Shown here in pieces: positions 9,288 through 28,137 of a stretch of DNA of 64,000 nt. Source of the stretch: Methanospirillum stamsii (GTDB lineage: Archaea; Halobacteriota; Methanomicrobia; Methanomicrobiales; Methanospirillaceae); NCBI RefSeq assembly GCF_003173335.1, contig NZ_QGMZ01000006.1, positions 62,001-126,000 on the forward strand, written 5' to 3'. The notes under the pieces are model-generated. The model had not been told where the DNA came from and did not search any database. It worked only from the letters and a program-made list of their open reading frames with translations. Position 1 is the stretch's first letter; every line of letters begins with the position of its first letter. The translations under genes were made by a program, and so were the position numbers.

Positions 9288-9314
9288 GATTATCCTCCTG
9301 GGGTTTCGGAGGGA

Positions 9315-9333
9315 CATGAGTATTAGACTCATG
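9315..9333 (-). promoter_or_regulatory. 5' leader hairpin of paralogue B
   Basis: A 7-bp stem (CATGAGT / ACTCATG) with loop ATTAG lies in the presumed 5' leader, matching the stem at 3130-3150 but with a different loop sequence. The flanking sequence GTAGAGAGCATGAGTCT is also identical between the two leaders. Confidence 0.6.
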
Positions 9334-10881: not shown

Positions 10882-10882
10882 T

Positions 10883-13567
10883 ATGATAAGAAAACCTGAT
10901 AGTCCGGTTCCTGTAAAGAAAAGTATTGCAACAAGATTGATATTTGCAGTTACATTTCTTGTCCTTATTTTCATATTGGTGGTTGGCATCAGCCTTATCT
11001 GGATTGCTCATGAACAACAATATCAAAATGTTTATAAATACCAGGACAAGGTATCAGAAGAGATTGGATTTATAATATCCCAATATATTTCTGATACATC
11101 TGATCAACTTACCGTTTTTGTCACCAGTTCCAGATTATCACAGATGTCTGTCCGGGAGCAAAAAGACGCAATAATTGATTTTTTAAACATCAGAAAAGGA
11201 ATTTTCAGCGAATGCACCATACTAGCCCCTGATGGAGAAGAACTGCTCAAAGTTTCCAGATATTATACCTATCTTCCGGATGAATTGCAGAACAGATCCC
11301 AGGACAATTTGTTTACCCGGGCGTTACAGGGAGAGACCAGTACAAGTCCGATATACCTATCTCAAAATACCGGATTATTATCGATCGACCTCGTCATTCC
11401 AATCAAAGATACGAAAGGAAATGTCTCCCAGATTCTCATTGGAACAGCCAGTATCATTCACCTCTGGTTTGAGATAAATGCCATTGATATGGGTGAGACC
11501 GGATATTTCTATATTGTTGACAGGAATGGAACGATTATTGCTGACCAGGAGATATCACAGGTCTTAAACCGGTACGGGACAAATCCTGGTGCCATTCCCC
11601 CGGTTTTACTTTTTGCTTCAGGAGAAGAGGATGGATTATCTGAATCAGTGTATACCGGATCTCATGGCGAAGAGGTCATTGGGGCATTCTCTCCCATAAA
11701 AGGGACTGACTGGGCAGTTATTTCCGAAATTTCAACGAGAGAGGCTTTTTTAAGGACACATCAGATGATGGTCCTGACCGTCCTGTCCCTTCTCATCGGG
11801 TCAATCGCTGCAATAATCCTGGGATATCTTCTTTCCCGTCACCTTATCACACCGATAATATCTCTTACAGATAATGCCACAAAGATTGGGAAAGGGGATC
11901 TTCATAGCACGATTGTCGGAACTGACCGGGTGGATGAGGTCGGGGTGCTTGCCCGGAGTATGAATCAGATGCAGGATGATCTAAACCGGCTCTATGACAA
12001 CCTGGAGAAGAAGATTTCAGAACTCTCAGAAATAAAAGAAGAACTGCAGATATCCGAGGAGCAGTATCGGACTATTTTTGAACATTCTGAAAATCCCCTC
12101 TTCATTTTAACAAGTGATAATATCATCACTCATGTAAACAAAAAATTTGAGACATTATGGGGGTATTCAAGGGAAGAGATTATCGGAAAAAAGCAATGGA
12201 CAGAATTTGTTGCCAATCCTGATGATCTAGATATCATGACATCGTATTATGTCCGGCGTTTTGCAGGAGATACAGATGTTCCGGGGATATATGAATTTCA
12301 ATTCCTTGACCGCAATCAAAACATTCATGATATTATTGCCAGTATCACATTAATGCCCGGAAAAAAACAAATGTTTGCCACATTTGTTGATTACACTGAA
12401 AAGAAAGAGTTTGAACGAGAGATTTTAAACAAAAATCTTGAATTGGAGGAAGCGAATAGTAAACTTGCCCAAAATGAGGAAGTATTACGGAGTAATTATA
12501 AAAAACTGGCAGATATTGAGAAGGAACTCATCGAGAGTGAGCAGAAGTACCGGAGCATTGTTGAAGACCAGACATATCTCATCATCCGGTTTAAATCTGA
12601 TAATACGATAATATTTGTCAATAATGCATTTTGTAATTTCTTTAATCTTAAAAGGGAAGATATTCTTCATTCATCGTTTGAGATTCCGGCCCTGCATGAC
12701 TATCTGCATGGAATGAAGGGTTGTATGGAATCATTAAGACAGGGAGAACCGGTATGCTCAGTTGAGCACAGGGTAACCGTGTCCGAAGGTAAGGAGAAAT
12801 GGATCCATCAGAGGATACACGGATTTTTCAACGAAGATGGTTCTTTAAGAGAAATCCAGTCTGTATTGAGTGACGTTACAAACCGGAAGAATGCTGAACT
12901 GGCCCTTGAAAAAGCACGGAAAAAACTTGCACTCTTAAATTCCATCACTTTCATGGATATCAGGAATAATATTTTTACCCTTGCCGGTTATCTGCAGGTT
13001 CAGGATGAGTTATTTGATGATGAATCATTCAGGGATTTGACAAAAAAAGAGTATCATATTATCCAAAAGATTTCACAATCGCTGGATTTTGCAAAAGATT
13101 ACCAGGATATGGGAATTAATCCGGCCAGTTGGCAGAATGTTCGTCAGGCTTATCTTTTTGCAATTTCCCATCTGGATCTGACCCATCTTGAAAGAAAAGA
13201 AGATTTAGAGGGGCTCAATATCTTTGCAGATCCCCTGCTTGAGAAGGTGTTCTATAACCTTGCATTAAATATCGTAATGCATGGTAAAGATAAGACGTCG
13301 TATCTTCGGGTATATTATGAGAAGAGAGACAGCGATATCATTTTATTCTTCGAGGATGACGGTCCGGGTATACCAGAATCCATAAAAGAGAGTATCTTCT
13401 CACGGAGAAGTGAAAAGAAAAAGGGAATGGGTCTTTATTTTGTCCGTGAAGTTCTGGGGATTACCGGTATATCTATTTACGAGACCGGTATCGAGGGAGA
13501 AGGAGCCAGGTTTGAGATTTTCATTCCCAAAGGAAGATACCGGATTGATAAAAGTAAAAATTCATAG
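10883..13567 (+). CDS. dCache-HAMP-PAS-PAS sensor with His-less kinase core
   Basis: The 894-residue protein has a first membrane helix at ~20-42, an extracellular double-Cache region (~45-290), a second helix (~293-318), a HAMP domain (~320-372), a coiled linker, two PAS domains (~395-515 and ~550-665), and a kinase-like core. The ATP-binding domain keeps an N box (NLALNIVMHG) and a G1 box (DDGPGIP) plus a GMGLYFV G2 segment. In the dimerisation helix, where archaeal kinases read TRHDI, this protein reads TFMDIRNN: Met691 occupies the phospho-acceptor position. It therefore probably cannot autophosphorylate in the usual way and may signal by conformation or as a heterodimer partner. It is coupled to the upstream ligand-binding lipoprotein. 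The same C-terminal type occurs at 54643-55530. Confidence 0.85.
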   Translation: MIRKPDSPVPVKKSIATRLIFAVTFLVLIFILVVGISLIWIAHEQQYQNVYKYQDKVSEEIGFIISQYISDTSDQLTVFVTSSRLSQMSVREQKDAIIDFLNIRKGIFSECTILAPDGEELLKVSRYYTYLPDELQNRSQDNLFTRALQGETSTSPIYLSQNTGLLSIDLVIPIKDTKGNVSQILIGTASIIHLWFEINAIDMGETGYFYIVDRNGTIIADQEISQVLNRYGTNPGAIPPVLLFASGEEDGLSESVYTGSHGEEVIGAFSPIKGTDWAVISEISTREAFLRTHQMMVLTVLSLLIGSIAAIILGYLLSRHLITPIISLTDNATKIGKGDLHSTIVGTDRVDEVGVLARSMNQMQDDLNRLYDNLEKKISELSEIKEELQISEEQYRTIFEHSENPLFILTSDNIITHVNKKFETLWGYSREEIIGKKQWTEFVANPDDLDIMTSYYVRRFAGDTDVPGIYEFQFLDRNQNIHDIIASITLMPGKKQMFATFVDYTEKKEFEREILNKNLELEEANSKLAQNEEVLRSNYKKLADIEKELIESEQKYRSIVEDQTYLIIRFKSDNTIIFVNNAFCNFFNLKREDILHSSFEIPALHDYLHGMKGCMESLRQGEPVCSVEHRVTVSEGKEKWIHQRIHGFFNEDGSLREIQSVLSDVTNRKNAELALEKARKKLALLNSITFMDIRNNIFTLAGYLQVQDELFDDESFRDLTKKEYHIIQKISQSLDFAKDYQDMGINPASWQNVRQAYLFAISHLDLTHLERKEDLEGLNIFADPLLEKVFYNLALNIVMHGKDKTSYLRVYYEKRDSDIILFFEDDGPGIPESIKESIFSRRSEKKKGMGLYFVREVLGITGISIYETGIEGEGARFEIFIPKGRYRIDKSKNS

Positions 13568-13674
13568 ATAGCCAGGGTCTCCGGAAAGAGTCACGTAAAG
13601 AGGAAACGAAGTTCTTCAGACCGATTACTATTGTGTAAACGCAATTATTACATATAAGGAAGAAAAAAAATAGT

Positions 13675-13694
13675 CATTTACTCTTCAAAATAAT
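13675..13694. repeat. 20-bp direct repeat, left copy
   Basis: The sequence catttactcttcaaaataat is repeated without mismatch at 15345-15364. This copy covers the last codons of the PIN gene. Confidence 0.75.
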
Positions 13695-14161
13695 GTCTTT
13701 TCAATATCTGATATTTCTGATAAACGTATCAAAATAGAGAGAACACCTTTCTTCAATGCATGATGATGCATACCCTCATCATCGGTAAATAGTGGAATTT
13801 TCTCCCGGTATGCAAGTGCAATGAAATATGAGTCAAAGCCTGAACAACTTTGAGATTCAGCAATCTTCCACGATTCATGGAAGATTTCTTCTTCAGAGAC
13901 GAGTGTACTAGTTGAATAGAGGCGGGATGTTATCTTCTGGCTGGTTTGTTTGTCAGTAAACCGACGGGAAACTGCAGCAACTTCAACTATACTCACTTTT
14001 GGCAATATGACTTCAATAAATCGTTCTTCAATGATTTTAAAGAGGTACATGCATTTTTTGTGAGTAAGAATCTCACGATTATAAATTTCTAAAGGGAGAG
14101 AAGTTTTTGGTGGGAAAAAACCTTTAATTATTACTGAAGAATCTAGAACGCACTTATTCAT
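13685..14161 (-). CDS. PIN-domain ribonuclease toxin (VapC-like)
   Basis: The 158-residue protein begins MNKCVLDSSVIIKGF, with the first PIN-domain aspartate at residue 7, and has later acidic residues in SIVEVAAVSRR, GFDSYFIALAY and LFTDDEGM that match the metal-binding pocket of PIN nucleases. The expected function is a metal-dependent RNase toxin held in check by the product of the overlapping upstream gene. The start at 14161 overlaps the antitoxin stop by eight bases (ATGAATAA), a typical coupling; an in-frame start 13 codons earlier would extend further into the antitoxin gene. The last codons lie inside a 20-bp direct repeat shared with the end of the Mrr gene, so the C-terminus may have been altered by recombination. 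Confidence 0.8.
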   Translation of the reverse strand: MNKCVLDSSVIIKGFFPPKTSLPLEIYNREILTHKKCMYLFKIIEERFIEVILPKVSIVEVAAVSRRFTDKQTSQKITSRLYSTSTLVSEEEIFHESWKIAESQSCSGFDSYFIALAYREKIPLFTDDEGMHHHALKKGVLSILIRLSEISDIEKTLF

Positions 14162-14348
14162 AATATTTTTTATGGCGAATTTCATCCAGAACAGAATCAA
14201 TGTTTTCAGAAACCGGGATTTCCCCTAATTCCTGGGCTAGACTGTATAAACCAGGTTCAATTCGGATTGTAATTATATCACCGTCATGAAAGGGTATCGG
14301 TTCAAGTGGCTGAATCTGCTTCCCAATGACTTTTGCTCGAATTATCAT
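14154..14348 (-). CDS. Antitoxin partner of the PIN toxin (AF2212/DUF104-like)
   Basis: The 64-residue protein reads MIIRAKVIGKQIQPLEPIPF and continues with HDGDIITIRIEP, which matches the short beta-strand N-terminus of the AF2212-type (DUF104) antitoxins: a Y/K-x-x-G x(2)PL E segment followed by a polar xGDxxxIxI strand. A charged helical tail (ENIDSVLDEIRHKK) would wrap the toxin. It lies directly upstream of the PIN gene with an eight-base overlap, the standard order for type II modules. The protein probably neutralises the PIN RNase and may autoregulate the pair. Confidence 0.7.
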   Translation of the reverse strand: MIIRAKVIGKQIQPLEPIPFHDGDIITIRIEPGLYSLAQELGEIPVSENIDSVLDEIRHKKYYE

Positions 14349-14926
14349 ATCTTCAGTGTCCTCATTGAGATGTAAGGTTTAAAAACTCACAAAATCTCTT
14401 TAAGTTATCTTATTAGTCATTTCTCGTAATTATGTGTATGGGAACCAGTGGTTGAATACGTAAATTTTAGGAAAAATCTGGTGTTTCAGGAGTGTCAAAA
14501 AAAATCCGATTTCTCACAATACATTATTTGCACAATTGAACATAATTATCCTTTATCTTATCAACCTTGGATATCTCCCCTGCACCCTGGAGGCCCGCTC
14601 ATCCATAACGAGCACGGTGGGCTAACACCCAGCTCATGATACAATTGTTTTTGTGTTTCAAAAAATCGTTTGAAGAAAAGCCGATTAGTCATTCGTAAGT
14701 TATTCATTCATAAACTTAGGGATATAACCAGGAATACATGGTGAAATAACTAAAAGTTGTGAAAAGGTGGATTATTATACTCATAAAAAATCGCTTATAT
14801 ACTGCGAAATGAATTGTATAGATGGGTTAAGTGGAATGATGGAAAAAAACCAGTCTCATTCTGCATTATAAAGAGAATTTCAAAATTATCCGAAATCCCC
14901 TATTCGGAATACACATAGAAGGTATA
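14349..14926. other. Gene-poor stretch inside the accessory island
   Basis: These 578 bases are A/T-rich apart from a short G/C-richer patch at 14578-14635. A 63-codon frame at 14448-14639 has no ribosome binding site and no recognisable protein and is not called. No inverted repeats, tRNA or transposon ends were seen. Confidence 0.4.
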
Positions 14927-15363
14927 ATGGAAGGCGATGGAAAAAAACTCATCCGGAACAGCACTGCTGATTTTCTAATCTTCACTCTGGAATCAGGAGA
15001 AAGGAGCAATGAAGTCAGGTATGAGGATGAGACGATATGGCTGAGCCAGAAGATGATGGCCCTCCTCTTTGATGTTGCCCAACCAACCATCAGCGAACAT
15101 CTGAATAGTATCTTTGAGAGAGGAGAACTCAACCGGGAGACAACTTATCGGAAATTCCGATTAGTTCAACGGGAGGGAAACCGAGACGTATCCCGAAAAA
15201 TCGACTACTATAACCTTGACGCGGTCATTTCAGTCGGATACCGCTCAATTCTATCCATGCAACCCAGTTTAGACGGTGGACAACCCGGATATTCAGACAT
15301 TTTACAAACGTAATTACTGCGTATCAGAAAGGAAACAATATTGCCATTTACTCTTCAAAATAA
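14927..15363 (+). pseudogene. RhuM-family protein, frameshifted and truncated
   Basis: The first 105 codons encode a typical RhuM N-terminus: ADFLIFTLESG, VRYEDETIWLSQKMMALLF, a helix-turn-helix (VAQPTISEHLNSIF), then RKIDYYNLDAVISVGYR. After Tyr105 the reading frame loses one base near 15242-15244. Restoring it gives LNSIHATQFRRWTTRIF, which is the expected continuation, up to a stop at 15361-15363. Even corrected, the gene has only about 145 of the usual ~330 residues, because it runs into the 3' end of the oppositely oriented Mrr gene. RhuM proteins are often found in islands and prophages near restriction genes. The fragment is probably non-functional. Confidence 0.75.
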
Positions 15364-15364
15364 T
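15345..15364. repeat. 20-bp direct repeat, right copy
   Basis: Identical to 13675-13694. This copy spans the stop codon and last codons of the Mrr gene and the truncated end of the RhuM fragment. Confidence 0.75.
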
Positions 15365-16257
15365 CCATGTCAATTTTCTTTACAATATATCGTGATTCTT
15401 CTGACACCCCGACATTATGATCTATCATAAGCTCTGTCAGTGTTTCCCCGTCAATGAGCACAACTTTCTGTTCAATCCGCTGGACATATTCCAATGCCTC
15501 TTTTGAGAACCGGGAGGTTGTGATAAACACCCCTTTTCGTGCACGATTACCGGCAAGACTACCAACAAATGCCTGTATTTCGGGTCTTCCAACAGTATTC
15601 TGCCATCTTTTGGCCTGAATACAAACCGTATCCAGTCCTAACTTATCCTCTTTAATAATCCCATCAATTCCATCATCACCGGATCTTCCTACCCTTTCAC
15701 CTGCTTCACTCCTTGACCCCCCATAACCCATAGCAACCAGAAGATCAACGACCAACCTCTCAAAAAATTCCGGTGAACTACTGAATACCTGGGATAACAG
15801 TTCATGAGCTAATTTATTTCGTAAATCCTGATAACTATTTTCGAGTATTTCCTGAGGGGTCAGTTCATTTTCCAAAGAATCCGGGCGTTCCTCGAATGAT
15901 GACTGATTATCAGATTTAAAGCCTTGAAACTCTAGAAATTCAGGAAATTGCTTTAAAAATTGTTGATCTATGTGACCGGGATTCTGACTGAGGACTGATA
16001 ATCCCCGTTCAGTAATCCTCACCTTTCCTCGTGACGGAGTTGTAACCAGTCCTGCTTTTTATATATGTTTTAGCCCAGCCAACACGGTTATCAAAGGTTG
16101 ACTGAACTCCACTCGGTAGTTTTTGGTTTAATTCTTCTTCAGAAAGCTGAAATGAAGATGCAATTAGTTTATAGATATCCTGATTGGAGTGTTCATTACC
16201 ATCTTTTACTGCCAACAGGACCGGAAGCATGAATGCCTGATAATCAGGAATTGCCAT
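15348..16257 (-). pseudogene. mrr: Mrr-type restriction endonuclease, split by a +1 frameshift
   Basis: The N-terminal frame (from ATG 16257) encodes the Mrr_N winged-helix domain: MAIPDYQAFMLPVLLAVKDG then LPSGVQSTFDNRVGWAKTYIK. At an A5 run (minus strand, 16056-16060) the frame shifts; removing one A gives AGLVTTPSRGKVRITERG, joining smoothly to the second frame. That frame carries the catalytic Mrr domain with FERLVVDLLVAMGYGG, GDDGIDGIIKED and CIQAKRW (the D...QxK nuclease motif). The joined protein would be 302 residues, normal for the family, which cuts methylated DNA. The lesion is a single base in a homopolymer, so a phase-variable, slippage-corrected or sequencing-error explanation remains possible. 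The stop overlaps the 20-bp repeat. Confidence 0.8.
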
Positions 16258-16277: not shown

Positions 16278-16364
16278 TTAAAGCTCCATAAGTGATTCGA
16301 TATTAGTCTCCATAAACAAAGCAGCCTGCTTCTTTGGCCATGGTCGGATCATCTGACCGGATTT
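16278..16364 (-). repeat. Remnant 1 of the 102-residue gene 3' end
   Basis: Directly at the stop codon of the TOPRIM-like gene, a frame encodes SGQMIRPWPKKQAALFMET and continues eight residues to a stop. This corresponds to the C-terminal peptide MIRDWPKKKAALFIREER of the intact gene at 19236-19544. DNA identity is clear over gcagcctgcttctttggcca, then decays. It is a detached copy of a gene end, not a gene. Confidence 0.7.
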
Positions 16365-16824
16365 AAGCATTATCGATTATCCATTTTCTCAATGTCATCA
16401 ATTCATTGTCTTTTTGTGCCAGAGAATGAATGAATTTCTGAAACCCGGATTTATCTTCATAATGAGGGATTGAATGAAGAGTATTAGGATCCCGTGGAAG
16501 ACCAAATTCACCAGGATCTATCTTTTGGGCTTTTGCCCACTTATAAAACCAATCTTCAAGTCTTGGTGATATCTGAATGATAAATGAACCATTTTTCATC
16601 TCCATTAAAATCAAATCACCACATCTTTCAATAATATTTGCTGAAGATAAAATACCTGGTTGATTGCTATCGGGATCTTCATCGATCATACCAATGGTTC
16701 CGGAATTATTCACAACGAAATTAATGACCTTCCCTTTATTTCCCTGATGTTTACAATTTTTTCTCCGAGCACCAAAAACCTTGTGTACAAGATGGGTATC
16801 CGGATTACATTCCGTTGCAATCAC
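16363..16824 (-). CDS. Small TOPRIM-like protein, partner of AAA ATPase
   Basis: The 153-residue product shows the spacing of a minimal TOPRIM fold: an acidic residue after the first strand (MIATECNPDTHLV, Glu5), and a DxD after a later strand (TIGMIDEDPD, Asp48 and Asp50). The rest is helical, with SPRLEDWFYKWAKAQ and a C-terminal segment QKFIHSLAQKDNELMTLRKW. I infer a metal-dependent nuclease-type role from this; I do not recognise a named family. Its start overlaps the stop of the upstream ATPase gene in an ATGA (16821-16824), so the two are translationally coupled. In OLD-type nucleases ATPase and TOPRIM are fused; here they are split, as in several defence systems. It could also be a non-catalytic partner. 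Confidence 0.6.
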   Translation of the reverse strand: MIATECNPDTHLVHKVFGARRKNCKHQGNKGKVINFVVNNSGTIGMIDEDPDSNQPGILSSANIIERCGDLILMEMKNGSFIIQISPRLEDWFYKWAKAQKIDPGEFGLPRDPNTLHSIPHYEDKSGFQKFIHSLAQKDNELMTLRKWIIDNA

Positions 16825-17942
16825 TCATTACTCTCCAGAAAAGAATCCAGGTCAAAAAAGGGATCAGTACAAATCATTTCAGAGATCTGATCCGGACCAA
16901 GCTGCGTCACCTGAGTTTCTCCATCGTTTCTGGTGACAATATTTACTGCAATATCTTCCTTTCTGACTTTTTCAATTAATGTGGAAAGGAGATATTGGTT
17001 ATGAGTAACAATGAAAAACTGGTTACTCGTATCAAGCCAGATTTGCTCGGCAAGGTATTTCGTATAATAGGGAAATGTGTGAGATTCAGGCTCCTCAAAG
17101 ATAAGTGTGGCATTTTTCTGAGAAGCTATTGCTATCGTGTAAAAAGCAACATGTCGCAAAGTATCTGAAGAAATGCGGTACGGATAGGTATAGACAATAT
17201 TGTCCTCTTCCTGCTGGAATTCGAACTTATTTTCTCCGGGTTTCAGAACGAATTTAAATTCGTTGGATGAAAAGAGTTCCTTCATAATTTCCAAACATTT
17301 TTTGTCGTACATGACAACAGAAAAGAGGTTTTGTCCATATGGTGACTTGAGCGGAGCATTCGACGAATCAGGGAATTGAAACAGATCAACAAATTTGTAA
17401 AAGAATATTGAATTTAACTCCTGGACACGGTTTATTTCATTTTTCACCCTACCGGATGAACTAAATATTGATACTTCTCTTCCAATACCTGACTTCTCAA
17501 TCTCATCCTCATCACTGCCTTGACGATGAATAACTTTACATTCATCACCACTCATGGTGATCGTAACATTCTGAATGCGGGAATGGGCAATAGAGTTTGA
17601 AGAATCACGAAGAGATATTGAAACAGGATTATCTATCTGATATTTAAAGAAGAGATTTTGCATCTTCTCAAACCTGACATATGAGGATATTTCCTGTATT
17701 TGATGAACTTCAAATGTTTCTTGTTTTTCCGGAGGATATGAGGGAAAACCTGAAGGATCGTTTAATATGTGTGATTTATTTTTTTTATAGTCACTCTGAC
17801 CACAAAAGCTCAATATCCCTAAAGCTTCCAGTATATTTGATTTACCAGTATTTGGTTCTCCAAGAAAGATGTTTACCTTTCTGCATTTGAGATCCAGTTT
17901 CTTGATTGACTTAAAATTTTCAATTGATAAATCTGATATCAT
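16821..17942 (-). CDS. AAA family ATPase (ABC/SMC-like, AAA_15/21 type)
   Basis: The 373-residue protein opens ISDLSIENFKSIKKLDL with the Walker A motif FLGEPNTGKSNILEAL, as in RecF/OLD-like ATPases. The Walker B region is ATLIFEEPESHTFPYY, followed by a switch segment FFIVTHNQYLLSTLIEK. A long insertion replaces the coiled-coil. The chain ends soon after the ATPase core, so no nuclease domain is fused; the downstream coupled gene supplies a TOPRIM-like protein instead. A HicB-like gene ends five bases before its start. The three-gene cassette has the form of an ATPase-effector defence module, but its activity is inferred from architecture and context only. Confidence 0.8.
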   Translation of the reverse strand: MISDLSIENFKSIKKLDLKCRKVNIFLGEPNTGKSNILEALGILSFCGQSDYKKNKSHILNDPSGFPSYPPEKQETFEVHQIQEISSYVRFEKMQNLFFKYQIDNPVSISLRDSSNSIAHSRIQNVTITMSGDECKVIHRQGSDEDEIEKSGIGREVSIFSSSGRVKNEINRVQELNSIFFYKFVDLFQFPDSSNAPLKSPYGQNLFSVVMYDKKCLEIMKELFSSNEFKFVLKPGENKFEFQQEEDNIVYTYPYRISSDTLRHVAFYTIAIASQKNATLIFEEPESHTFPYYTKYLAEQIWLDTSNQFFIVTHNQYLLSTLIEKVRKEDIAVNIVTRNDGETQVTQLGPDQISEMICTDPFFDLDSFLESNE

Positions 17943-18160: not shown

Positions 18161-18215
18161 AAAGATAAGTATTTTTCAGTATTATGCTGATTTCAGAATA
18201 TAAAACTGAATTTTT

Positions 18216-18362
18216 TTATCTCTCCTCCCGGACAAACAACGCAGCCTTCTTCTTTGGCCAGCCCCGGATCATCTGACCGGACTCAGGGGGTTTTAAGTTC
18301 AGGAGCGATAAATCCTTCAGGACCAGGAGAACATCACAAATAATAACTGACCGGATTACATG
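18216..18362 (-). repeat. Remnant 2 of the 102-residue gene 3' half
   Basis: Between the HicB-like promoter and the MNT gene a minus-strand frame without a start encodes VIRSVIICDVLLVLKDL, then ESGQMIRGWPKKKAALFVREER with its stop at 18216-18218. It aligns to the second half of the intact protein at 19236-19544, with about 19 residues missing between ESG and MIR. The last 43 bases differ at only two positions from the intact gene. It starts immediately after the MNT stop codon. Confidence 0.75.
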
Positions 18363-18370: not shown

Positions 18371-18739
18371 TTATGCTTCAGCCGGATCTGGATGTGAAAA
18401 ACAGATCGTGTCCGGATGCATGATAATACCACCCCGGATAAATTCCATCCGGATAGACTGTTCATTATTATATTCTTCCTTTGTCAGAGGAATAACATCA
18501 AAAGGAATATGATATTTCTGTACAGTTTTTACAATATGTTTACCAAGCATATGAAAGCGTTTTGAGAATTCACATCCCTGAAATTTATCAGATACAATGG
18601 CAATATCAATATCACTCTGATCTGTTGCTGTTCCGGTTGAATATGAACCAAATAAGATAACAGGATTTACCTGGAGGCCTGATTTTTCAAGTTCCTGTAT
18701 AAAAAACTGAATTATCTGAGTAATTCTGTCTTGATCCAT
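18371..18739 (-). CDS. mntA: MNT-type minimal nucleotidyltransferase, antitoxin of HEPN toxin
   Basis: The 122-residue protein has the pol-beta nucleotidyltransferase signature: VILFGSYSTGTATDQSDIDI, with the GS motif at residues 31-32 and metal-binding Asp43 and Asp45, and a third Asp in FDVIP (residue 81). In type VII toxin-antitoxin modules MntA adds AMP to the HEPN toxin HepT and inactivates it. The gene overlaps the upstream HEPN gene by 28 bases, consistent with coupled translation. All three catalytic acidic residues are present, so it should be active. The C-terminus (HPDTICFSHPDPAEA) is extended and unstructured. Confidence 0.8.
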   Translation of the reverse strand: MDQDRITQIIQFFIQELEKSGLQVNPVILFGSYSTGTATDQSDIDIAIVSDKFQGCEFSKRFHMLGKHIVKTVQKYHIPFDVIPLTKEEYNNEQSIRMEFIRGGIIMHPDTICFSHPDPAEA

Positions 18740-19098
18740 GTAAACACCAGTTTTGCTCTTTGAAGTGTTGAATAAACTCTCTCGGGAGGTAAATCTCGCA
18801 GCGTATTATCAAGGTCCGGTGGATACCTCGCTTCAACACCCATCCCTTCTAATTCTTCGAGTAACGAGAAATCAGGTTCTGATATATCTAATGACAGCTC
18901 ACCAGCGAAAAAAAGGAGACTATGTGTCTTTGGAGGGGTCTTCTTTTTTAATTTAACATAATATGCCTTCAAAATTTTTTCAAGGGCCAGATGAATAGTA
19001 AATGTAGCATGTGCTGGGAGATTACTTTCAAGCATCCGCTCTGCTGCACTAAGGTCATATTCTGCTTGCTTTAACCATTCCTCTGAATTAGTTTTCAT
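18712..19098 (-). CDS. hepT: HEPN-domain protein, toxin of HEPN/MNT pair
   Basis: The 128-residue all-helical protein fits the HEPN family PF05168: SEEWLKQAEYDLSAAERMLE, then HATFTIHLALEKILKAYYVK, PPKTHSLLFFAGEL and a C-terminal RAKLVFTWIK helix. HEPN proteins of this class are RNases or tRNA-targeting toxins inactivated by AMPylation from the MNT partner. A strict RX4-6H motif is not obvious; the histidine of KTHSLL is the best candidate. The promoter is A/T-rich (TTTATTAAATATTAG about 20-35 bases before the ATG) with no ribosome binding site, so the mRNA may be leaderless. It lies 137 bases downstream of the replication operon on the same strand. Confidence 0.8.
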   Translation of the reverse strand: MKTNSEEWLKQAEYDLSAAERMLESNLPAHATFTIHLALEKILKAYYVKLKKKTPPKTHSLLFFAGELSLDISEPDFSLLEELEGMGVEARYPPDLDNTLRDLPPERVYSTLQRAKLVFTWIKTELLR

Positions 19099-19235: not shown

Positions 19236-19544
19236 TTATCTCTCCTCCCGGATAAACAAAGCAGCCTTCTTCTTTGGCCAGTCACGTATCATCACCCGGA
19301 CCTGTTTTACGAGTACCACATACCTCCCGGAGATAATAATCCGATTCCCGGACTCCGAGAGTTCCAAATCCGGAACCAAAAGACCATTCAGGACCAGGAG
19401 AAGATCACTTGCTTGAATATTCCGGATAACTCCATGACCATCCAGGATAACCTCACATGATCTATTTTCACCCGGACGAAGTCTTCCGACCTTTTCATAC
19501 CTGACCGGAGGTCTCGGATGTTCTGCAGTAACAACGAATTTCAT
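19236..19544 (-). CDS. Unrecognised 102-residue protein, last gene of replication operon
   Basis: The protein starts MKFVVTAEHPRPPVRYEKVG and ends MIRDWPKKKAALFIREER. The middle (CEVILDGHGVIRNIQASDLLLVLNGLLVPDL) looks like mixed alpha/beta; no known domain was recognised. The basic C-terminal peptide is duplicated as remnants at 16278-16364 and 18216-18362, so the 3' end of this gene appears to be a recombination hotspot. The start lies four bases after the stop of the primase-helicase gene with GAGAGGGTG upstream, so it belongs to that operon. A role in replication or as a small DNA-binding accessory is possible but unsupported. Confidence 0.7.
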   Translation of the reverse strand: MKFVVTAEHPRPPVRYEKVGRLRPGENRSCEVILDGHGVIRNIQASDLLLVLNGLLVPDLELSESGNRIIISGRYVVLVKQVRVMIRDWPKKKAALFIREER

Positions 19545-19548
19545 CAGG

Positions 19549-22500
19549 TTACACCCTCTCTCGTCCCTTTTCCCGGGAATAACAGAGATCACAGATGCCG
19601 GTTTTCGTATCAGGATCATACCAGGACACTCCTCCGAGACCACAGACTTTGCACCGGCCATAGTCCTTATCTGCCCGGACCATCCCTGAAACATTGACCG
19701 TTCCGGGAATAGTCACATATGACAGACTGATTCGTGCAACCGCCTTTGAATAACACCGCTCACAGATAACATGGGGATTTTGCTCTTCATCTTTCATCAG
19801 GGCAGACTTTTCGATATACATCACCCATTTCCCTCCACAGACAGTACAGGGGCCTTTCTTTACACCGGAGAGTTTAACGAATCCTTCCGGATCGATGGCA
19901 GAGATGGCAAGCATCGGATTACCGGAGGGCGGGAGATCTCCCCGGAGGCGGGAAGAAGTACATACCTCCCGCCCGTCGATTTTCTTCTCCGATTCAGAAA
20001 TCACGGATGATCCTTTTGTTGTACCCTCTTCTGAAGTGCTGAGGGCGGGAGCAAAATCCACAGGAGTATGAGAACTAGCCGGCAGGTTAGGGTAACATAC
20101 ACTCTCATTCTCCCGCCCTAAGGTATTATTAAAAAAATTATTTTTATTATAAGGAGTATTTATGGATTCTATTCCCGAATCATTCAGATCCGACAGGGCG
20201 GGAACTCCCGCCCTTAATTGATCCTCTCCCGCCTTCCCGCCCTCTCCTCCATCATGACCATCCGGAAAATTTCCCCGATCCCCGCCAGACGGAGAATTAT
20301 CAAGCCAGCAACCACTACCGGATATCCAGTTCTGGTACACCTCATCATCCCAGACAAAACACATACACCGTCTTCTTGTCCGGCCTTCATCCTCAACACT
20401 GGTCCTATCAAGATACGATATCGCCGGACATTTCTCAAGCAGCCCTGAATAACTCTTCCCATAACTATTGTACCCGCAGATGTGTTTCCTGATGGTCTGC
20501 TCAGCCGATCCGGTGACTTTAGAGAGTTCTGCAACGGTCCATTCCTGTCTGCCACTCCTTAAAACCTTGATAAGGGCCGACTCACTTCTGGTCAGTTTGG
20601 TAATCTGACTTCCGCATTCACCGTTGAGTGCGGTATACATCCTGCAGGCATACTCAAAATCATCCATATTTGCATAAATGACCGTAAATCCATCTCTTTC
20701 CATCCGCTCACGCTGAAACTGATGGAGGCATGCAATCGACTTTATCAGGTCAAGAAGCATTCCGGGATTTCTCCGGTTTGTTGAGGATGAAAACCGGATT
20801 TTTCTGGCATATGGAATGACCACGTACACCGGTGACAACAGATCCCAGATCTGATGGCATATCAGGACTTCATCCCGGGAAATGGATGCATCATCCGGAA
20901 GACACTCGGCACAGGCCAGTTCTCGTGCAAGCACTTTTTCATCCTGTTCATGACTGTCATCAATCCAGCAGGTAAGCATTCGGTTCCAGACCTGGTCATC
21001 ACCAGTCCCTTCCATCTTTGCAACCCACCAGACACACCGCTGCGGAATAATACAGACCTGCCCTTTTCTATCCTTATTCACCGTCCGGTACACAAACGGC
21101 TTTTTAAATGAGGTGGTAACCCCTTTCAATGTCTCCTGCATAGGTTCAGATAGAGAAACATCATCAAGGCAGATTGCAGTCCCACTTTTTAGATCTTCTA
21201 CATAAAAGAGGGCCTTATCACTCATCCGGCCATCAAGACGAGAATCCGGAGGGATATGCCGGATCATCGTGTCAAATGCATGACTCTTTCCTTTTCCGGA
21301 ATCTCCGGTAACAAGAACATGAAGACCGTTTGAATTCACCACCGACCGGGAAGCAAATGACATGATCAGGCATTGAGCAACGACCGTGTCTCCTTCATGA
21401 TCTTTCGCAAAAGAATCCAGGATATAATCTACCGGATTTCCGGATTTCAAGATACCAGATGCAGCCTCTGCATGTTCACCTGTTTTGATGGGAACATCAG
21501 TCTCAATATCAGTTGCCGTATCAGCATCAGTACCAGTATTAGTATCAGTAACAGTATCAGTACGGTCAGGGACTTTTGGAATATTCCCATAAAATTCCGC
21601 CTTTGCCTGTGCCCGGTCCCGTGCCATCTGTTTTAATCGTTGCTCTGGATCTCGCTTTTTTCCGGAAGATGGACCTTCAAACTTCTGGCGAAGTTCCTGC
21701 CACCTTTGCATTCCTCCACCGCATGAGTTATGATGACATCCGGCAAAAATTGCCCCGGATTCAAACTGGATGGCATATGCCCCGTCCTTATGGGCGGATG
21801 AGAACGGGCATTCATCAAGAATAAAGAGCCTTCCATCGGAAAATTCCTTTTCCCGAAAGGAGAGATCATATGTCCGGAGCCATGAACCAAGATCGTTGAC
21901 CTGGGTTCCTTTCTTCCGGACATCAGATGATCTCTCCTCTCCTAATGCCGGCGAAAGAAGGGAAGAAAGAGAGAAAAGAAGCTCCTTTGACACTACCCTG
22001 ACCTCATCCGGAAGCGAGATGATTTCAGATCTCCGGTGTGGACGCTCCGTTGTTGAATCACCTTTTCGGGAGACCGTTCCATAGAGTTTCCATATCCGGG
22101 CAGCATTCGAGACAGATGTGTCAATATCCGAATCATCATCGGAAAAGAAGGTTTTGAGAACCAAAAGACAGTTTTTGACAAGGGTCAGACTTTCTGCATC
22201 GCTAGGAAGGGAGACCCGGTACAGGAGATGGGCACCGTTTCCTGAATCGGCTAAAACCGGTTCAGGCCAGCCAAGTTCAGAGAGAAATCCCCTGATCTTT
22301 TCTGCCTTTATCGCCGCCAGAGAATGTTCATTGTCGGTTGAGGAGATCCCGGAGATCCGTTTTGGATCGATGTCAATAGGAAACCACCGTCTGTTAATGA
22401 TATCATCATCGGAGGTTGTCTTATCAGACTTCCCAAGTCTCATCTCTATCCGGTTTGACCGTCGTGCAAGCAGGTCCGGATTTATCTCGTTGAGGGTTAC

Positions 22501-22677
22501 GTAAATACCGCTGTATTCAGGATCGCTATCGAGGATCTGCACTTTTTCAGCAAGTTTTGCATAATCAGTAAAGTATCCGGATGAAACAGCGTTCTTTCGA
22601 AATGCCCTGACTTCAACGACCTGTCCGGGTGCAAACAGGATTTCACAGTTCTTTCTGATTGTATCAGCATGAGACAT
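19549..22677 (-). CDS. PrimPol-AAA+ helicase replication protein of an integrated element
   Basis: The 1042-residue protein has an N-terminal AEP/PrimPol-like domain (residues ~1-250): motif I PIDIDP with Asp102 and Asp104, and motif II DSGNGAHLLYR with His150. A CHC2-like zinc ribbon follows (Cys290, His296, Cys314, Cys319). A Thr/Asp-repeat linker (~374-395) leads to a helicase-type ATPase with Walker A GDSGKGKS (458-465) and Walker B AICLDDV. A winged-helix-like segment (TVAELSKVTGSAEQTIRKHI) and two C-terminal CxxC zinc ribbons complete it. This layout is typical of replication proteins of plasmids, viruses and integrated elements. It would make primers and unwind DNA. Start: ATG at 22675-22677 with GGGAG seven bases upstream. 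No integrase or capsid gene was found nearby. Confidence 0.8.
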   Translation of the reverse strand: MSHADTIRKNCEILFAPGQVVEVRAFRKNAVSSGYFTDYAKLAEKVQILDSDPEYSGIYVTLNEINPDLLARRSNRIEMRLGKSDKTTSDDDIINRRWFPIDIDPKRISGISSTDNEHSLAAIKAEKIRGFLSELGWPEPVLADSGNGAHLLYRVSLPSDAESLTLVKNCLLVLKTFFSDDDSDIDTSVSNAARIWKLYGTVSRKGDSTTERPHRRSEIISLPDEVRVVSKELLFSLSSLLSPALGEERSSDVRKKGTQVNDLGSWLRTYDLSFREKEFSDGRLFILDECPFSSAHKDGAYAIQFESGAIFAGCHHNSCGGGMQRWQELRQKFEGPSSGKKRDPEQRLKQMARDRAQAKAEFYGNIPKVPDRTDTVTDTNTGTDADTATDIETDVPIKTGEHAEAASGILKSGNPVDYILDSFAKDHEGDTVVAQCLIMSFASRSVVNSNGLHVLVTGDSGKGKSHAFDTMIRHIPPDSRLDGRMSDKALFYVEDLKSGTAICLDDVSLSEPMQETLKGVTTSFKKPFVYRTVNKDRKGQVCIIPQRCVWWVAKMEGTGDDQVWNRMLTCWIDDSHEQDEKVLARELACAECLPDDASISRDEVLICHQIWDLLSPVYVVIPYARKIRFSSSTNRRNPGMLLDLIKSIACLHQFQRERMERDGFTVIYANMDDFEYACRMYTALNGECGSQITKLTRSESALIKVLRSGRQEWTVAELSKVTGSAEQTIRKHICGYNSYGKSYSGLLEKCPAISYLDRTSVEDEGRTRRRCMCFVWDDEVYQNWISGSGCWLDNSPSGGDRGNFPDGHDGGEGGKAGEDQLRAGVPALSDLNDSGIESINTPYNKNNFFNNTLGRENESVCYPNLPASSHTPVDFAPALSTSEEGTTKGSSVISESEKKIDGREVCTSSRLRGDLPPSGNPMLAISAIDPEGFVKLSGVKKGPCTVCGGKWVMYIEKSALMKDEEQNPHVICERCYSKAVARISLSYVTIPGTVNVSGMVRADKDYGRCKVCGLGGVSWYDPDTKTGICDLCYSREKGRERV

Positions 22678-22957
22678 GCTCAATCTCCCGGAAAACAGCC
22701 GGATACTCAAACCGGATGGTCCATGCTGTGATGAGACATGGATTTTTTAAACTGCTGCCCCAGGCTGAAAAATGACAATTCATTACCGAGCCAATGACTC
22801 TTCGCCTGGATAGCGATGTTGCAGAGGAGAGATAGGGATACAGATAGGGCCTTTTCTGGATTTCATCCTCTATCATCCGGCGAGAAATCACTGAATGAGG
22901 CTGAATGGTCAGCGAACAGGCGGCAAACAGCACCTCGTCTGATAATTCTGTCTTCAT
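22664..22957 (-). CDS. Unrecognised 97-residue protein in the replication operon
   Basis: The product begins MKTELSDEVLFAACSLTIQP. It is rich in Ser, Arg and aromatic residues, with a basic stretch SLSRRRVIGSVMNCH; no family was recognised. Coupling fixes its position: its ATG overlaps the stop of the nuclease-like gene as ATGA (22954-22957), and its 3' end overlaps the primase-helicase start by 14 bases. The tight packing argues that it is translated and functionally connected to replication or recombination of the element. A small winged-helix or DNA-binding accessory protein is one possibility. Confidence 0.6.
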   Translation of the reverse strand: MKTELSDEVLFAACSLTIQPHSVISRRMIEDEIQKRPYLYPYLSSATSLSRRRVIGSVMNCHFSAWGSSLKNPCLITAWTIRFEYPAVFREIEHVSC

Positions 22958-23286
22958 TCTTCGCTCCACGAAATTACGGATGCTCCTCCGGCATGAATCC
23001 TGTACCTGATCCATCCGGGTCTTCGATAAATCCAGAACTGGATCTCACCCGGAACCGAACCGGTTCTGATAAGTTCTGACAGACTGGCCAGTTCATGAGG
23101 AAAATGGGTGATTGTCAACCGTTTATTCGAGCGGATCACGAGGAAGAGAGCTTTGTTCTCCTTCCACCCGATAAGATCAAATCTTCGTTTCCTGCCGGTT
23201 ATCTTCTCAGCCCTATATCCGGCCTTTTCAAGAGAAGTCATTGCGGCATACTCCGCTGTTCTTCCGGATTGCCAGGTAGTACTCAT
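22954..23286 (-). CDS. Hjc-like PD-(D/E)XK protein, possibly inactive
   Basis: The 110-residue protein aligns in outline with archaeal Holliday-junction resolvase-like PD-(D/E)XK proteins: SGRTAEYAAMTSLEKAGYRA (Glu12), KRRFDLIGW (Asp37), KALFLVIRSNKR, and the C-terminal RRPGWIRYRIHAG. In active enzymes the third motif reads E/Q-x-K; here it is Val50-Ile-Arg52, so two catalytic residues are replaced. It may bind DNA junctions without cutting, or use other residues. A very good ribosome binding site (GGAGGGG) precedes the ATG at 23284-23286, and it is the first gene of the four-gene operon. Confidence 0.65.
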   Translation of the reverse strand: MSTTWQSGRTAEYAAMTSLEKAGYRAEKITGRKRRFDLIGWKENKALFLVIRSNKRLTITHFPHELASLSELIRTGSVPGEIQFWIYRRPGWIRYRIHAGGASVISWSEE

Positions 23287-23751
23287 AGAAGTCCCCTCCT
23301 TCCGGAGTGGAATAGAGGATAAAGTCCTTTACTCTTGAGAACACATGTTACGATTACCCCTGCTTGATTTCTTATGCGGCCAAGCTTTGAAAATTGGCGG
23401 GGGTACCCAGGTTTATCTTCGCATTGATTATTCACGTAAATCACCAGAGATTGCGTTTTTATCCTGTTTCTTTATTATTTCTGAATACAGGATTTTTTTA
23501 TCAACCTCTCATATGCCCCTCTAACTGACAAGGGTCTTACACAAATAACTAATTTATAAATAAAAAGATACCTAATTGGGCGGGCGATTAATCAGCTTAT
23601 GAGATGAAAATTTACCTTAAGAGGAATAATTCTGATTGTGAGGCTATATATAGCGCGAAAAATCGGAGATACTTTTTAGAGATCTGAAATTTATCTCATA
23701 AATAATATATATAAAAATTTATACCTCATTAAAACCAGGATACTATCAGGG
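23287..23751. other. Divergent promoter region between replication operon and beta-helix gene
   Basis: These 465 bases contain no credible gene. A hairpin ATCCTGT...ACAGGAT (23461-23467 with 23487-23493) followed by seven T residues looks like a plus-strand terminator with no gene in front of it, perhaps left over from a lost gene. Plus-strand TATA-like boxes occur at about 23643-23652 (CTATATATAG) and 23700-23722, the second directly before the beta-helix gene. Confidence 0.4.
23461..23499 (+). terminator. Orphan terminator-like hairpin
   Basis: A 7-bp stem with a 19-base loop followed by a T7 run. No plus-strand gene lies directly upstream, so it may be a relic or terminate an unannotated transcript. 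Confidence 0.35.
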
Positions 23752-26397
23752 ATGCCGGGGCTTATGGGGATGAACAATCTTTTCTCGTATCTGTGGATAT
23801 CAGTTTTCATTATGCTCATATTCTGCACAATAGCAGCAGGATCAGACACGCCGGAGATAGAACACAATACTCTGTTCCAGAACATGAGTGATAATCTACT
23901 ATCGTCGGATGATAGCAGAATTTTGCTTTCAGCCGTTCTGGATAGAAATTCAGAGTTACAAACTGCAATCATTGCTGCAGATAGTAAAACCGGACCACCA
24001 GTGAGGACTGAAGGGACCGGATGGCATGATGTTACCATGCCGGCTGTCATATCTGAACCAGGGCAATACCGGGTTGTCAATGATTATACTGGTGTAGGTG
24101 AACAGATCGGTCTTTTGATCAACTGTTCGGATGTCTATGTTGATGGAAACGGCCATACCTTCTCCGGTTCGTATGAAAATTATTGCTATGGCGTTGTTGC
24201 AGCGAATGATTACGAGATATCAAACATTACCGTAACGAATTTTAATAGCCGGAGATGTACCATCGGAGTTGCTTATTTAGGTGTTTTAGCCGGTGAAATA
24301 ATAAACACGACCCATTATACGAATACCGGGGGAATATCGGTTGGAAACGGGGGTTCCATCCATATCACTCATAATACTATCTCCGGATATGATTCAGAAA
24401 ATCCCTCCACTGAGATCTTTGGTATCGCAGGGACTGATGTCTCTGACCTGATTATTGAAGAAAACCAGATCTCAGATTTCGGCTCATCTGTTTACGCACT
24501 CAATTCAATTGGAATGATGTTTTCCAATGCACATAATTCCACTGTCCGGAATAATACCATGTCAGGACCGCTTGCAGTCGGACTTAATATTGAAAATACT
24601 GATGTAGAGGACAGTTTATATTCAAATATTTATAATAACCGGATATCAGGAGCTGATTCTCTTGGACTCAGTATTAGTAATGGATTATTTAGGGTAGCGA
24701 ATAACACGGTTTTTTCCGGGAAAAATGGGATATTGGTAACTGCAGACGACTCATTTATCACACAAAATATCATCCGTGATAATGCTGGAAATGGTCTTTC
24801 AATACATGGGAGAAATCTGACTATCCGGGAGAATATCCTGACAAATAATACATATAATTTTTATATTGACGGATTAGAAACCGAAGATTTTCTCCATACT
24901 ATTGACCGGACAAATCTTTGCAACGGAAGGCCTCTTATCTATATCCGGGAATCTGAAGGCGACCTTATCGGTAAGACAGATAATCCGGCGATGGTGCTTG
25001 CGGTAAACTCCCGAAACCTCACCGTCCGGGATGTTTCAACCGGATCAAACGTGGCCGGAATATTCCTTGTGAATTCAACGGGATCACATGTTTCTCATGC
25101 AACAGATTCAGGTTCTATTACCGGATCTGTAGCATTGAGATCGAATAACTGCAGCATTTCAGATCTCATCGTATCCGCTAACAAGGGTTATGGAGTTACC
25201 CTTTTTGAGACAAGTAACATCACATTTAACCGGTTAGATGTATCCGGATCTTCAAACACTGGTATCTTGGTACAGGTCTCCAGAGATACCCGGATAAACA
25301 ACAGTTCTGTTGGCAATTTTAATCCAGAAACCCACGAGGATGATGCATCTGGTATTGAGATAAGTGAAAGTCATGGCATCGTAATAAATGATTCTGAATT
25401 CTCAAATGGTCCTTATTATGGTGTTTTTGTGGCAAATTGTAAGAATGTGTCAGTTCAAAACACAAAAATCATGGGTAACAAGGAGTCTGGTGTTTACTTC
25501 ATACAGGATTCTTTTGTGTCAGTTGATAATTCTGACATTCTGGATAATGAAGACTGCGGAATTTCAATGGACTTTATCAGTAACTTTACCCTTAACCGGA
25601 ATTTTGTCACCGGGAATAAAAAGTCCGGAGTAATGTTTCTTGACGTAAAGGATGGGATAATAGCCGACAATCTTTTTAATAACTCGGAAAATGTGATATT
25701 TGTTTATGAAAAGACTCCGCTTGTGTGGAATACTACTCTCACACAGGGTGAAAATATTGCAGGCGGGCCGTATCTTGGTGGTAATTTCTGGGCGAATCTG
25801 AATGGTTCAGGATTTTCACAGACTCATGCTGACCGGGGAGATGGGATATGCAATGCATCCTACCGTATTGCTACAGAAAATATGGATTATCTTCCGCTGG
25901 CCGTTCCATCAGACGATATTATTCCTGATTTTATCGCAGGTCCAATCTCCGGAACACCCCCTCTTTCGGTGAAATTCACTGATAATTCGACCGGATATCC
26001 AAAAGCATGGAACTGGACATTCGGGGATGGCACATTCTCAAGCGAACAAAACCCTATTCACATCTATTCCGGGATAGGTAGGTATTCAGTGATCCTGGAA
26101 GTCACCGGTAGAGACGGAAAACAGGGAATCACTCAAAAACAAGGATTTATTGATGTAAATGCCGGAAGGTATATCGGTCCGAACGGGATGCTTTTTGTGA
26201 ATTCTACTCCGCAAAATGCATCAATATACCTTGATAATCTGTTTATTGGTCTTTCTCCACTAAAAGCGATTGGAATTTCTGCTGGACAGCATACGATAAT
26301 GATTTCACATGAGGGGTATCAGAATAGGACTGATTCAATATGGGTAAAATGTAATGAGATGACCTATGTTCCGGCTATACCCCTGCGAAAAAAATGA
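23752..26397 (+). CDS. Secreted NosD-like beta-helix protein with PKD and PEGA domains
   Basis: The 881-residue protein has a signal peptide (YLWISVFIMLIFCTIAAG-SD). After a short linker, residues ~85-700 are a right-handed parallel beta-helix of the NosD/CASH type, seen in repeated phrases such as NTISGYD, NNRISGADSLGLSISN, ENILTNNTYNFYIDG and NILTGNKKSGVMFLD-like turns. A PKD domain follows (~720-805, with WNWTFGDGTFSSEQNPIHIY), then a PEGA domain (~810-880, VNSTPQNASIYLDNLFIG). Such proteins sit on the cell surface and bind sugars or mediate attachment. Three in-frame ATGs occur within 19 bases; the third (MNNLFSYLW) has GGGG at suitable spacing and may be the real start. Confidence 0.8.
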   Translation: MPGLMGMNNLFSYLWISVFIMLIFCTIAAGSDTPEIEHNTLFQNMSDNLLSSDDSRILLSAVLDRNSELQTAIIAADSKTGPPVRTEGTGWHDVTMPAVISEPGQYRVVNDYTGVGEQIGLLINCSDVYVDGNGHTFSGSYENYCYGVVAANDYEISNITVTNFNSRRCTIGVAYLGVLAGEIINTTHYTNTGGISVGNGGSIHITHNTISGYDSENPSTEIFGIAGTDVSDLIIEENQISDFGSSVYALNSIGMMFSNAHNSTVRNNTMSGPLAVGLNIENTDVEDSLYSNIYNNRISGADSLGLSISNGLFRVANNTVFSGKNGILVTADDSFITQNIIRDNAGNGLSIHGRNLTIRENILTNNTYNFYIDGLETEDFLHTIDRTNLCNGRPLIYIRESEGDLIGKTDNPAMVLAVNSRNLTVRDVSTGSNVAGIFLVNSTGSHVSHATDSGSITGSVALRSNNCSISDLIVSANKGYGVTLFETSNITFNRLDVSGSSNTGILVQVSRDTRINNSSVGNFNPETHEDDASGIEISESHGIVINDSEFSNGPYYGVFVANCKNVSVQNTKIMGNKESGVYFIQDSFVSVDNSDILDNEDCGISMDFISNFTLNRNFVTGNKKSGVMFLDVKDGIIADNLFNNSENVIFVYEKTPLVWNTTLTQGENIAGGPYLGGNFWANLNGSGFSQTHADRGDGICNASYRIATENMDYLPLAVPSDDIIPDFIAGPISGTPPLSVKFTDNSTGYPKAWNWTFGDGTFSSEQNPIHIYSGIGRYSVILEVTGRDGKQGITQKQGFIDVNAGRYIGPNGMLFVNSTPQNASIYLDNLFIGLSPLKAIGISAGQHTIMISHEGYQNRTDSIWVKCNEMTYVPAIPLRKK

Positions 26398-26691
26398 GTG
26401 TAGAGATTAAAATTTTCGAAAAAAAATCAGGAAATATCAGATCTTAACAAAGGGATTAATTATCTCCAGATTTTTAATACATTGGAGATCCTGAGTAGTC
26501 CGGGTAACTAATAGATTATTATTGATAATGATATAACCTTCAATTTGCATTTATTCTCAGTGTTATTGTTTTTTTTAAACCCTGCATTAATTCAACGAAA
26601 TTTTCAGCCTTAGTACTGGTATGGATTTTACCAACGTGTTTAACACAAAAACCAAACTTTCATGATATCGTGAGAGATAAGTAATATACTT
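26398..26691. other. A/T-rich intergenic stretch
   Basis: No gene, RNA or repeat was recognised in these 294 bases. GTAATATACTTATG at the right end could be the promoter of the ATPase pseudogene. Confidence 0.3.
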
Positions 26692-28105
26692 ATGTCTCAC
26701 ATTAAATTTATCAATCGGATCTATGAGCTCGCATTTCTTGAAGAAAGGTATCGCTCAAAAAACTCTGAATTGCTCATACTCTATGGAAGGAGGCGGGCTT
26801 TGAAAGACTGAACTTCTCATCCACTTTTTAGAGAATAAACAAGGAATATACATCCTGGCAACAACGGAATCGGAAAAGGTCAACATCGGACTCTTTGCTA
26901 AAGAAATTGGAGATTTCCTTGATGATCCAAATTTTGCATTCGTATCGTATCCATCATTTGAATCACTCTGGACTAGTTTTCTATCACATCAACAGTTTAA
27001 GAAAATAGCCTTGGAACAGAGGAAAATTCCTATAATAATTGACGAATTTCCATATCTCATCGAGAGAAACCGAACAATTCCATCTCAATTCCAGCGAATC
27101 TGGGATCTGCATATGCGAGATAGTCCGGTGATGCTTATCCTCTCCGGTTCCAGCATCGGTATTATGGAACAGGAGGTTCTTGGATATAAGAGCCCCCTGT
27201 ATGGGAGAAGAACCGGACAATGGCAGGTTGAACCATTGTCTTTTGAGCATCTCAAGGAATTTCTTCCATGGTCCGGTGTATTCCTTGCCCAGGTATGGTT
27301 TATTACAGGAGGAATTCCTGCATACCTTGAATTGTTTGATCCAACCACCGACTTCTGGTCAAATGTTTCAAGACTCTTTCTTACCAAAGGTGCATACCTC
27401 ACGATGGAGGCAGAATTACTCCTTCAATATGAATTCAGGGAACCTGCAAATTATCAGACTATTCTTAAAGCAATAGCAGAGCGTCATACCTCACTAGGCG
27501 AGATAATTCAACAATCTGGTCTTGACCGGAGTATGGTCTCTAAATACCTTTCAGTTTTAATAAAACTTCACATTGTTCGTGAAGAATTACCAGTTACCGC
27601 TACTCCGGGGTCCAGGAAACGGAGATACCGGATTTCAGATCCATATCTCTCTTTCTGGTTCAGATTTGTTTATCCGGAAATGACCGCTATAGAAGCAAGG
27701 CAGACATCACAAGTTCTTGAACGAATTAAGGATAACTTTCCCAGATTTTCAGGAACACTCTTTGAACTTCTTACAGAACATCTCATCAGAGAAAAAATTT
27801 TCTTTCCGGATACCCCCATAAACCAGCTTGGAAGGTGGTGGCACAATGAGACGGAGATTGATCTGGTAGGCATTTCAGAAAGTGAAGATTCTATGATATG
27901 TGTTGAATGCAAATGGACAGATCTTTCCCAAAATGAAGCAAGGGTAATCCTCAAAAAACTCGAGGAGAAAAGCCAGATGATCAGATGGAGGAATGACAAA
28001 AGAAAGACGATTTATGCCCTGGTTGGAAGAAAAATAGCAGGGAAGAGTGAGATCCGCAAATCCGGATATGAAGTGTATGATCTTTCGGATATTAACCGGA
28101 TATAG
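26692..28105 (+). pseudogene. Archaeal ATPase with DUF234 C-terminus, P-loop destroyed
   Basis: The gene starts ATG (26692) and encodes HIKFINRIYELAFLEERY and LLILYGRRR, the lead-in to the Walker A of archaeal ATPases (PF01637). Exactly there the frame breaks: an extra base and a TGA at the glycine codon replace the expected (V/A)GK, and the alternative frame resumes KTELLIHFLENKQGIYILA. From there the frame is open for more than 430 codons: Walker B PIIIDEFPYLI, sensor LILSGSSIGIM, a winged helix (TSLGEIIQQSGLDRSMVSKY) and the DUF234 nuclease-like domain (TEIDLVGISE..ICVECKW). A product starting internally at 27011 would lack the ATP site. I call it a pseudogene; a read error is less likely because two changes are needed. 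Confidence 0.75.
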
Positions 28106-28137
28106 GACACCACAGAAAAAATATGGTAATTTATCTT

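Follow-up and report, generated by a model that had tools for sequence, protein, structure and literature searches.

An integrase-less primase–helicase operon in Methanospirillum stamsii, probably the replication module of an arCOG07809-type integrative element

Results

Within the window, by which we mean the whole 64-kb stretch of Methanospirillum stamsii DNA analysed, four open reading frames on the minus strand occupy positions 19236–23286, and in the ORF list their ends overlap or nearly touch. The operon begins with a gene for an Hjc-like protein of 110 aa (22954–23286), which resembles arCOG09441 by description, and continues with the p97 gene (22664–23014), encoding a small basic protein of 116 aa from the first ATG or 97 aa from the ATG at 22957. 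The primase–helicase gene follows (19549–22710; 1,053 aa with a TTG start, 1,042 aa if the ATG at 22677 is used), and the p102 gene (19236–19544; 102 aa) is the last. The original prediction had drawn the same four overlapping or nearly touching genes, and both the ORFs and the homologous loci agree with it. Chance can be ruled out for this arrangement because the same gene order, with invariant motifs, is repeated in dozens of loci. The prediction that no integrase, capsid, or partition gene lies nearby was also borne out. When the window was translated in six frames and searched with profiles, no fragment of the integrase family was found, and there is no tRNA gene within the 64 kb. Among the scanned proteins neighbouring the operon, there was no capsid or partition family and no other virion family (portal, terminase, or similar). 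We located neither an empty site nor the ends of this copy.

The primase–helicase combines a primase–polymerase-like domain, a zinc site, an MCM-like AAA+ helicase domain, and a C-terminal cysteine (zinc) domain. Family alignments contain the Cys/His zinc site, Walker A and B, the C-terminal cysteines, and AEP-type motifs that are invariant or near-invariant. For example, D113, D115, SGNGxH (156–161), D197, and R205 were invariant or nearly so in 30 sequences, viral contigs included, and the catalytic motifs expected of an AEP or PrimPol (DxD-type, sxH-type, and a further Asp/Arg region) are present. The primase domain of the window protein had no direct match to any Pfam, NCBIfam, or PDB family. 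LigD_Prim-Pol was matched weakly by 3 of the 30 relatives (best E 6e-4) and was not found in the protein's own genome; phrog_2478 (polymerase/primase) was matched weakly by one of the 30. The AF2 model was good in its folded parts and has helices after the AAA+ part, and MCM helicases made up the top 50 PDB matches listed (best E 3e-8). Assignment of the window protein to AEP is less secure; its grounds are the order of the motifs and the placing of the arCOG07809 family in AEP by Makarova et al. (2014; PMC4158269).

The Hjc-like protein matched phrog_6591, a Holliday junction resolvase family (E 0.0024), and we suspect a PD-(D/E)xK-type fold. Canonical Hjc proteins use D and ExK as catalytic residues. 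In the alignment, the Hjc-like protein retains the Asp motif (FDLI), while VIR stands at the ExK position, which is variable across the family. Since the protein keeps the Asp motif without ExK, resolvase activity appears doubtful. Homologues of p97 were found at the same place in 16 loci, and for this protein we infer, only tentatively, a role in DNA binding.

Matches to the primase–helicase were found in 44 of 61 relatives, with more than 10 loci in some genomes. The genome of M. stamsii itself holds several near-complete copies and fragments that are ~50–56% identical to the window copy. In a scan of public genomes, 80 loci were recovered, nearly all titled Methanomicrobiales or its genera and a few titled only Euryarchaeota; across the phylum, full-length matches were confined to Methanomicrobiales, and elsewhere only single domains matched. 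Many Methanomicrobiales genomes have no primase–helicase, and its position differs from genome to genome. The family is accessory and order-specific, and the concern raised with the original prediction, that the operon might be core and syntenic in all relatives, does not apply.

Related loci gave a fuller picture of the element. A tyrosine integrase of ~411 residues was found near the operon in 22 of them, including one in the M. stamsii genome, almost always upstream and on the same strand, and in at least 13 loci it directly follows a tRNA gene. Both element ends could be found in four cases, as 14–19-bp repeats of the tRNA 3′ end enclosing 24–42 kb. These were at tRNA-Thr in genome G022 (19-bp repeat, 30.1 kb), at tRNA-Leu in G274 (19 bp, 41.8 kb), and twice in G275, at tRNA-Thr (16 bp, 27.0 kb) and at a tRNA judged by eye to contain an intron (14 bp, 23.9 kb), the last being the weakest case. 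The integrase, the primase–helicase, and a p102 homologue occur in all four, and the conserved protein C2 described below in three. Restriction- and SIR2-like genes are among their other cargo, as are transporters, judged by eye from the starts of the ORFs. The missing integrase is a local loss at the window copy, which has neither an integrase of its own nor the attachment sites of an autonomous element. The operon had also been proposed as a minimal replicon; it appears instead as the replication module of integrative elements of 24–42 kb, whose complete relatives have a tyrosine integrase at a tRNA gene. In one locus of G022 (L071, 5982–7990), the place of the single hjc-like gene before the primase–helicase is taken by several small genes of the U15 family, related to one another and arranged as an array.

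Two further genes, overlooked in the original prediction, travel with the operon. C2 (28898–29416, minus strand) encodes a conserved element protein of 172 aa found in 38 loci, and C3 (28313–28873, minus strand), which encodes 186 aa with an N-terminus that by eye resembles a signal peptide, lies beside C2 in 26 loci. Most C2 copies in the M. stamsii genome lie within ~25 kb of a primase–helicase copy or fragment. In the window, C2 and C3 are parted from the operon by a block (23580–28116) with a gene for a NosD/PKD/PEGA protein and an ATPase_2/DUF234 gene, which is absent at the same position in the nearest relative, G001. A 1.47-kb segment with the ATPase_2/DUF234 gene (26650–28117) has counterparts of 82–88% identity at unrelated positions in G001, G003, G006, and G009, and in G001 it lies on the opposite side of C2/C3. 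This segment looks mobile in its own right.

Downstream of the operon, two defence-type cassettes are stacked on the minus strand, each bounded by a repeat of the p102 3′ end. The HEPN/MNT cassette (18371–19098) consists of a HEPN gene (18712–19098; Pfam E 5e-21) and an MNT gene (18371–18739; NTP_transf_2 E 6e-12), and lies between p102 and the first repeat (18210–18337, minus), which is 89% identical over 64 nt. The AAA/p153 cassette (16363–17942), with an AAA_21 ATPase (16821–17942; Pfam) and p153 (16363–16824), lies between this repeat and the second (16290–16362, minus). Both repeats have a profile match to p102 where zero chance matches were expected, lie in the same orientation, and have one internal deletion junction in common. 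The HEPN/MNT cassette is not at this place in the G001 counterpart (locus L047). Beside the p102 remnant of that locus, a 160-bp direct repeat derived from the AAA/p153 junction, 98% identical, is found at 4731–4890 and 5449–5608.

Such 3′-end repeats were found across the family for 19 of 64 p102 genes. The corresponding counts were 2 of 78 for hjc (p 5e-6), 9 of 119 for the primase–helicase (p 2e-4), and 3 of 28 for C2 (p 0.06), p values that are optimistic since the loci are not fully independent. We also considered p102-type sites as free genomic repeats and rejected this, as 12 genomes gave only 13 matches and those with a comparable place are at primase–helicase loci. The PADLOC families matched numbered 133 for 80 genes downstream of the operon, 95 for 80 upstream, and 54 for 79 chosen at random; these counts are inflated by redundant models and have at most four members per family. 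Enrichment of defence genes beside the operon is modest across loci and only suggestive. The original prediction had regarded the operon as a platform for inserted defence cassettes. This idea holds at the window, where p102 3′-end repeats bound the cassettes, and is weak as a general defence-island property, for which the PADLOC counts reveal no overwhelming enrichment.

In a phylogenetic tree, the window copy pairs with the integrase-less locus L047 of G001, in a group that includes the integrase-bearing loci L039 and L077; the tree was built with FastTree and does not settle in which order the integrases were lost. The 22 loci retrieved from G001, G003, and G008 all lack an integrase nearby, and there is no good match to the integrase anywhere in G001. 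When the window copy was compared with L047, dN/dS was 0.15 for hjc, 0.25 for p97, 0.19 for the primase–helicase, 0.22 for p102, 0.23 for C2, and 0.27 for C3. The genes are intact and the operon is under purifying selection (0.15–0.25), which argues against the earlier suggestion of a relic. A truly decayed copy is found elsewhere in the same genome (L042, G000:C78, 8696–14300), where tRNA-Leu is followed by an integrase fragment, primase–helicase fragments, and then C2/C3.

The synonymous divergence of the operon and C2/C3 between the window and L047 was 0.57–1.0, compared with a median of about 1.6 for core genes of the same two genomes, a median that is near saturation, comes from a single region for each pair of genomes, and includes a few low values possibly due to wrong-frame ORFs. 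Two further integrase-less pairs, between G001 and G003, had primase–helicase dS of 0.46 and 0.85, where the core median, subject to the same cautions, was 1.46. Because operon dS lies below core dS, exchange of integrase-less copies between Methanospirillum species after the species split is supported, though not proven. Vertical inheritance of the G001 counterpart was considered, as its nucleotide identity (77–81%) is near that of a core region (69–77%), but was rejected on the lower operon dS. Between the window and G001, dS was 0.54 for the nearby MFS and ATPase_2 genes and 0.29–0.36 for the AAA/p153 cassette, with 90% nucleotide identity for the latter. The simplest reading is that AAA/p153 arrived most recently.

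Discussion

The original prediction holds in part: there is a primase–helicase replication operon with no integrase at this copy and with cassettes stacked directly downstream, but the readings as a relic or a free-standing minimal replicon do not stand. Taken as a whole, the most probable explanation, which we hold with fair confidence, is that the operon serves an arCOG07809-type integrative element as its replication module, maintained as an integrase-less copy that has been exchanged between species and has gained cassettes behind it. Complete relatives sit at a tRNA 3′ end and have their own tyrosine integrase, as direct repeats show in four cases. On the excised circle, the primase–helicase would unwind and prime the DNA, presumably assisted by p97 and the Hjc-fold protein. 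The window copy would descend from such a tRNA-inserted element; it has no integrase or tRNA site near it and persists in the chromosome with its genes under purifying selection. Integrase-less copies like it would have passed between Methanospirillum species after these split, as synonymous divergence suggests. HEPN/MNT and AAA/p153 would have been added behind the operon; the bounding repeats are observed, and a mechanism of insertion is what they suggest.

The element family itself is already described. Makarova and colleagues noted it in 2014 as the putative integrative elements of arCOG07809 and arCOG09441 (PMC4158269), the only paper among those searched that names it. In their account, the Mpal_2033-type elements combine a primase, a helicase, an HTH, and a Zn-finger protein with an associated PD-(D/E)xK protein of the HJR family (arCOG09441). 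Some have integrases and recognised integration sites, none has capsid genes, and they occur in methanogens including Methanosphaerula (PMC4158269). The window protein has the same primase, helicase, HTH, and Zn-finger combination, judged by its motifs, cysteines, MCM-like fold, and post-AAA+ helices. It is homologous to three loci of G014, and the Hjc-like gene directly upstream corresponds to the HJR-type partner. Integrases and integration sites are likewise seen in some members, with a tyrosine integrase in 22 related loci and both ends in four, but not in the window copy, which differs from the described elements in having neither an integrase nor a tRNA site. A second difference is size, since PMC4158269 calls the elements small and those with defined ends here span 24–42 kb. 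Our analysis adds the C2/C3 partners, the p102 repeats, the multi-copy spread, and the four end-defined elements.

Other replication proteins also bear comparison. The PrimPol-PV1 supergroup, as described by Kazlauskas and colleagues (2018; PMC5862659), is similar in that an AEP on mobile elements is fused to a helicase-like ATPase, and in that tyrosine recombinases often insert the elements at tRNA genes. The Methanomicrobiales family does not appear in the main-text passages found, and the likeness is one of description. ORF904 of the Sulfolobus plasmid pRN1 is also a primase–polymerase and helicase replication protein with small DNA-binding partners, but a relation to the pRN1 primase gave no signal in profile comparison, and the ORF904 helicase belongs to superfamily 3 (PMC4158269), whereas that of the window protein is MCM-like by predicted fold. 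MCM helicases share the predicted AAA+ fold (E 3e-8), yet identity is 11–15%, and the window domain belongs to a mobile element and is joined to a primase-like domain.

For the cassettes, two accounts of the repeats have to be weighed, and both site-like insertion and decayed tandem copies fit. There is about an even chance that the p102 repeats are leftovers of deleted tandem copies of the element rather than an insertion site. A full or near-full second p102 is present in L049, L055, L108, and L136, and where p102 is missing, as in L070, L137, and L156, the 3′ end of the primase–helicase gene can be repeated instead. Whole tandem copies, though, should also leave hjc repeats, which are nearly absent, and the two window repeats have a single deletion junction in common. 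The alternative that the p102 3′ end is a reusable capture site, where cassettes insert and regenerate the site and so build a defence array behind a replication module able to spread with no integrase of its own, we consider improbable in this full form, while the repeats do suggest a place where cargo is added. In L070, which is in G014 and has no p102, the 3′ end of the primase–helicase gene is repeated three times downstream (8258–15470).

Turning to the operon, it could have been domesticated for a host function, such as repair or phage defence, and no longer move. Purifying selection in a copy without integrase and the many copies without an adjacent integrase in complete genomes are consistent with this, and a Thermus primase–polymerase on a mobile element has been reported to act in defence against environmental DNA (PMC7693054). 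Against domestication, positions vary between genomes, many relatives have no operon, and the three integrase-less pairs with dS below that of core genes point to continued transfer, so that we regard it as rather unlikely. An origin as a provirus or satellite virus, with C2 and C3 as virion genes, is unlikely too. A satellite virus was proposed for the family in PMC4158269, C2 is conserved in the element, and proteins on IMG/VR contigs are 32–46% identical to the primase-like domain. These matches, however, are limited to the N-terminal primase region, and no capsid family was recognised beside the window operon. C2 as a known virion protein is supported by neither fold nor sequence: its model, predicted with confidence (AF2 pLDDT 91), matched nothing in PDB or BFVD at E 1e-3, and its sequence had no match in viral contigs or phages. 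That the operon is a dead integrated element decaying after integrase loss, as the absent integrase and tRNA site, the lost ExK residues, and decayed copies such as L042 might suggest, is very unlikely and already disfavoured by the intact operon and C2/C3 genes (dN/dS 0.15–0.27 against an integrase-less relative) and the invariant catalytic-type motifs.

Under the preferred reading, an integrative element that lost its integrase locally, the way in which the integrase-less copies move is a question that can be tested. Among the mobile units of Methanomicrobiales, these elements rank with the more abundantly copied ones, and the family, while described, has been neglected. The N-terminal primase-like domain also occurs, at 47% identity, in a protein annotated as a HEAT-repeat protein on plasmid pMETHO01 of Methanomethylovorans hollandica (L269, 5959–8478).
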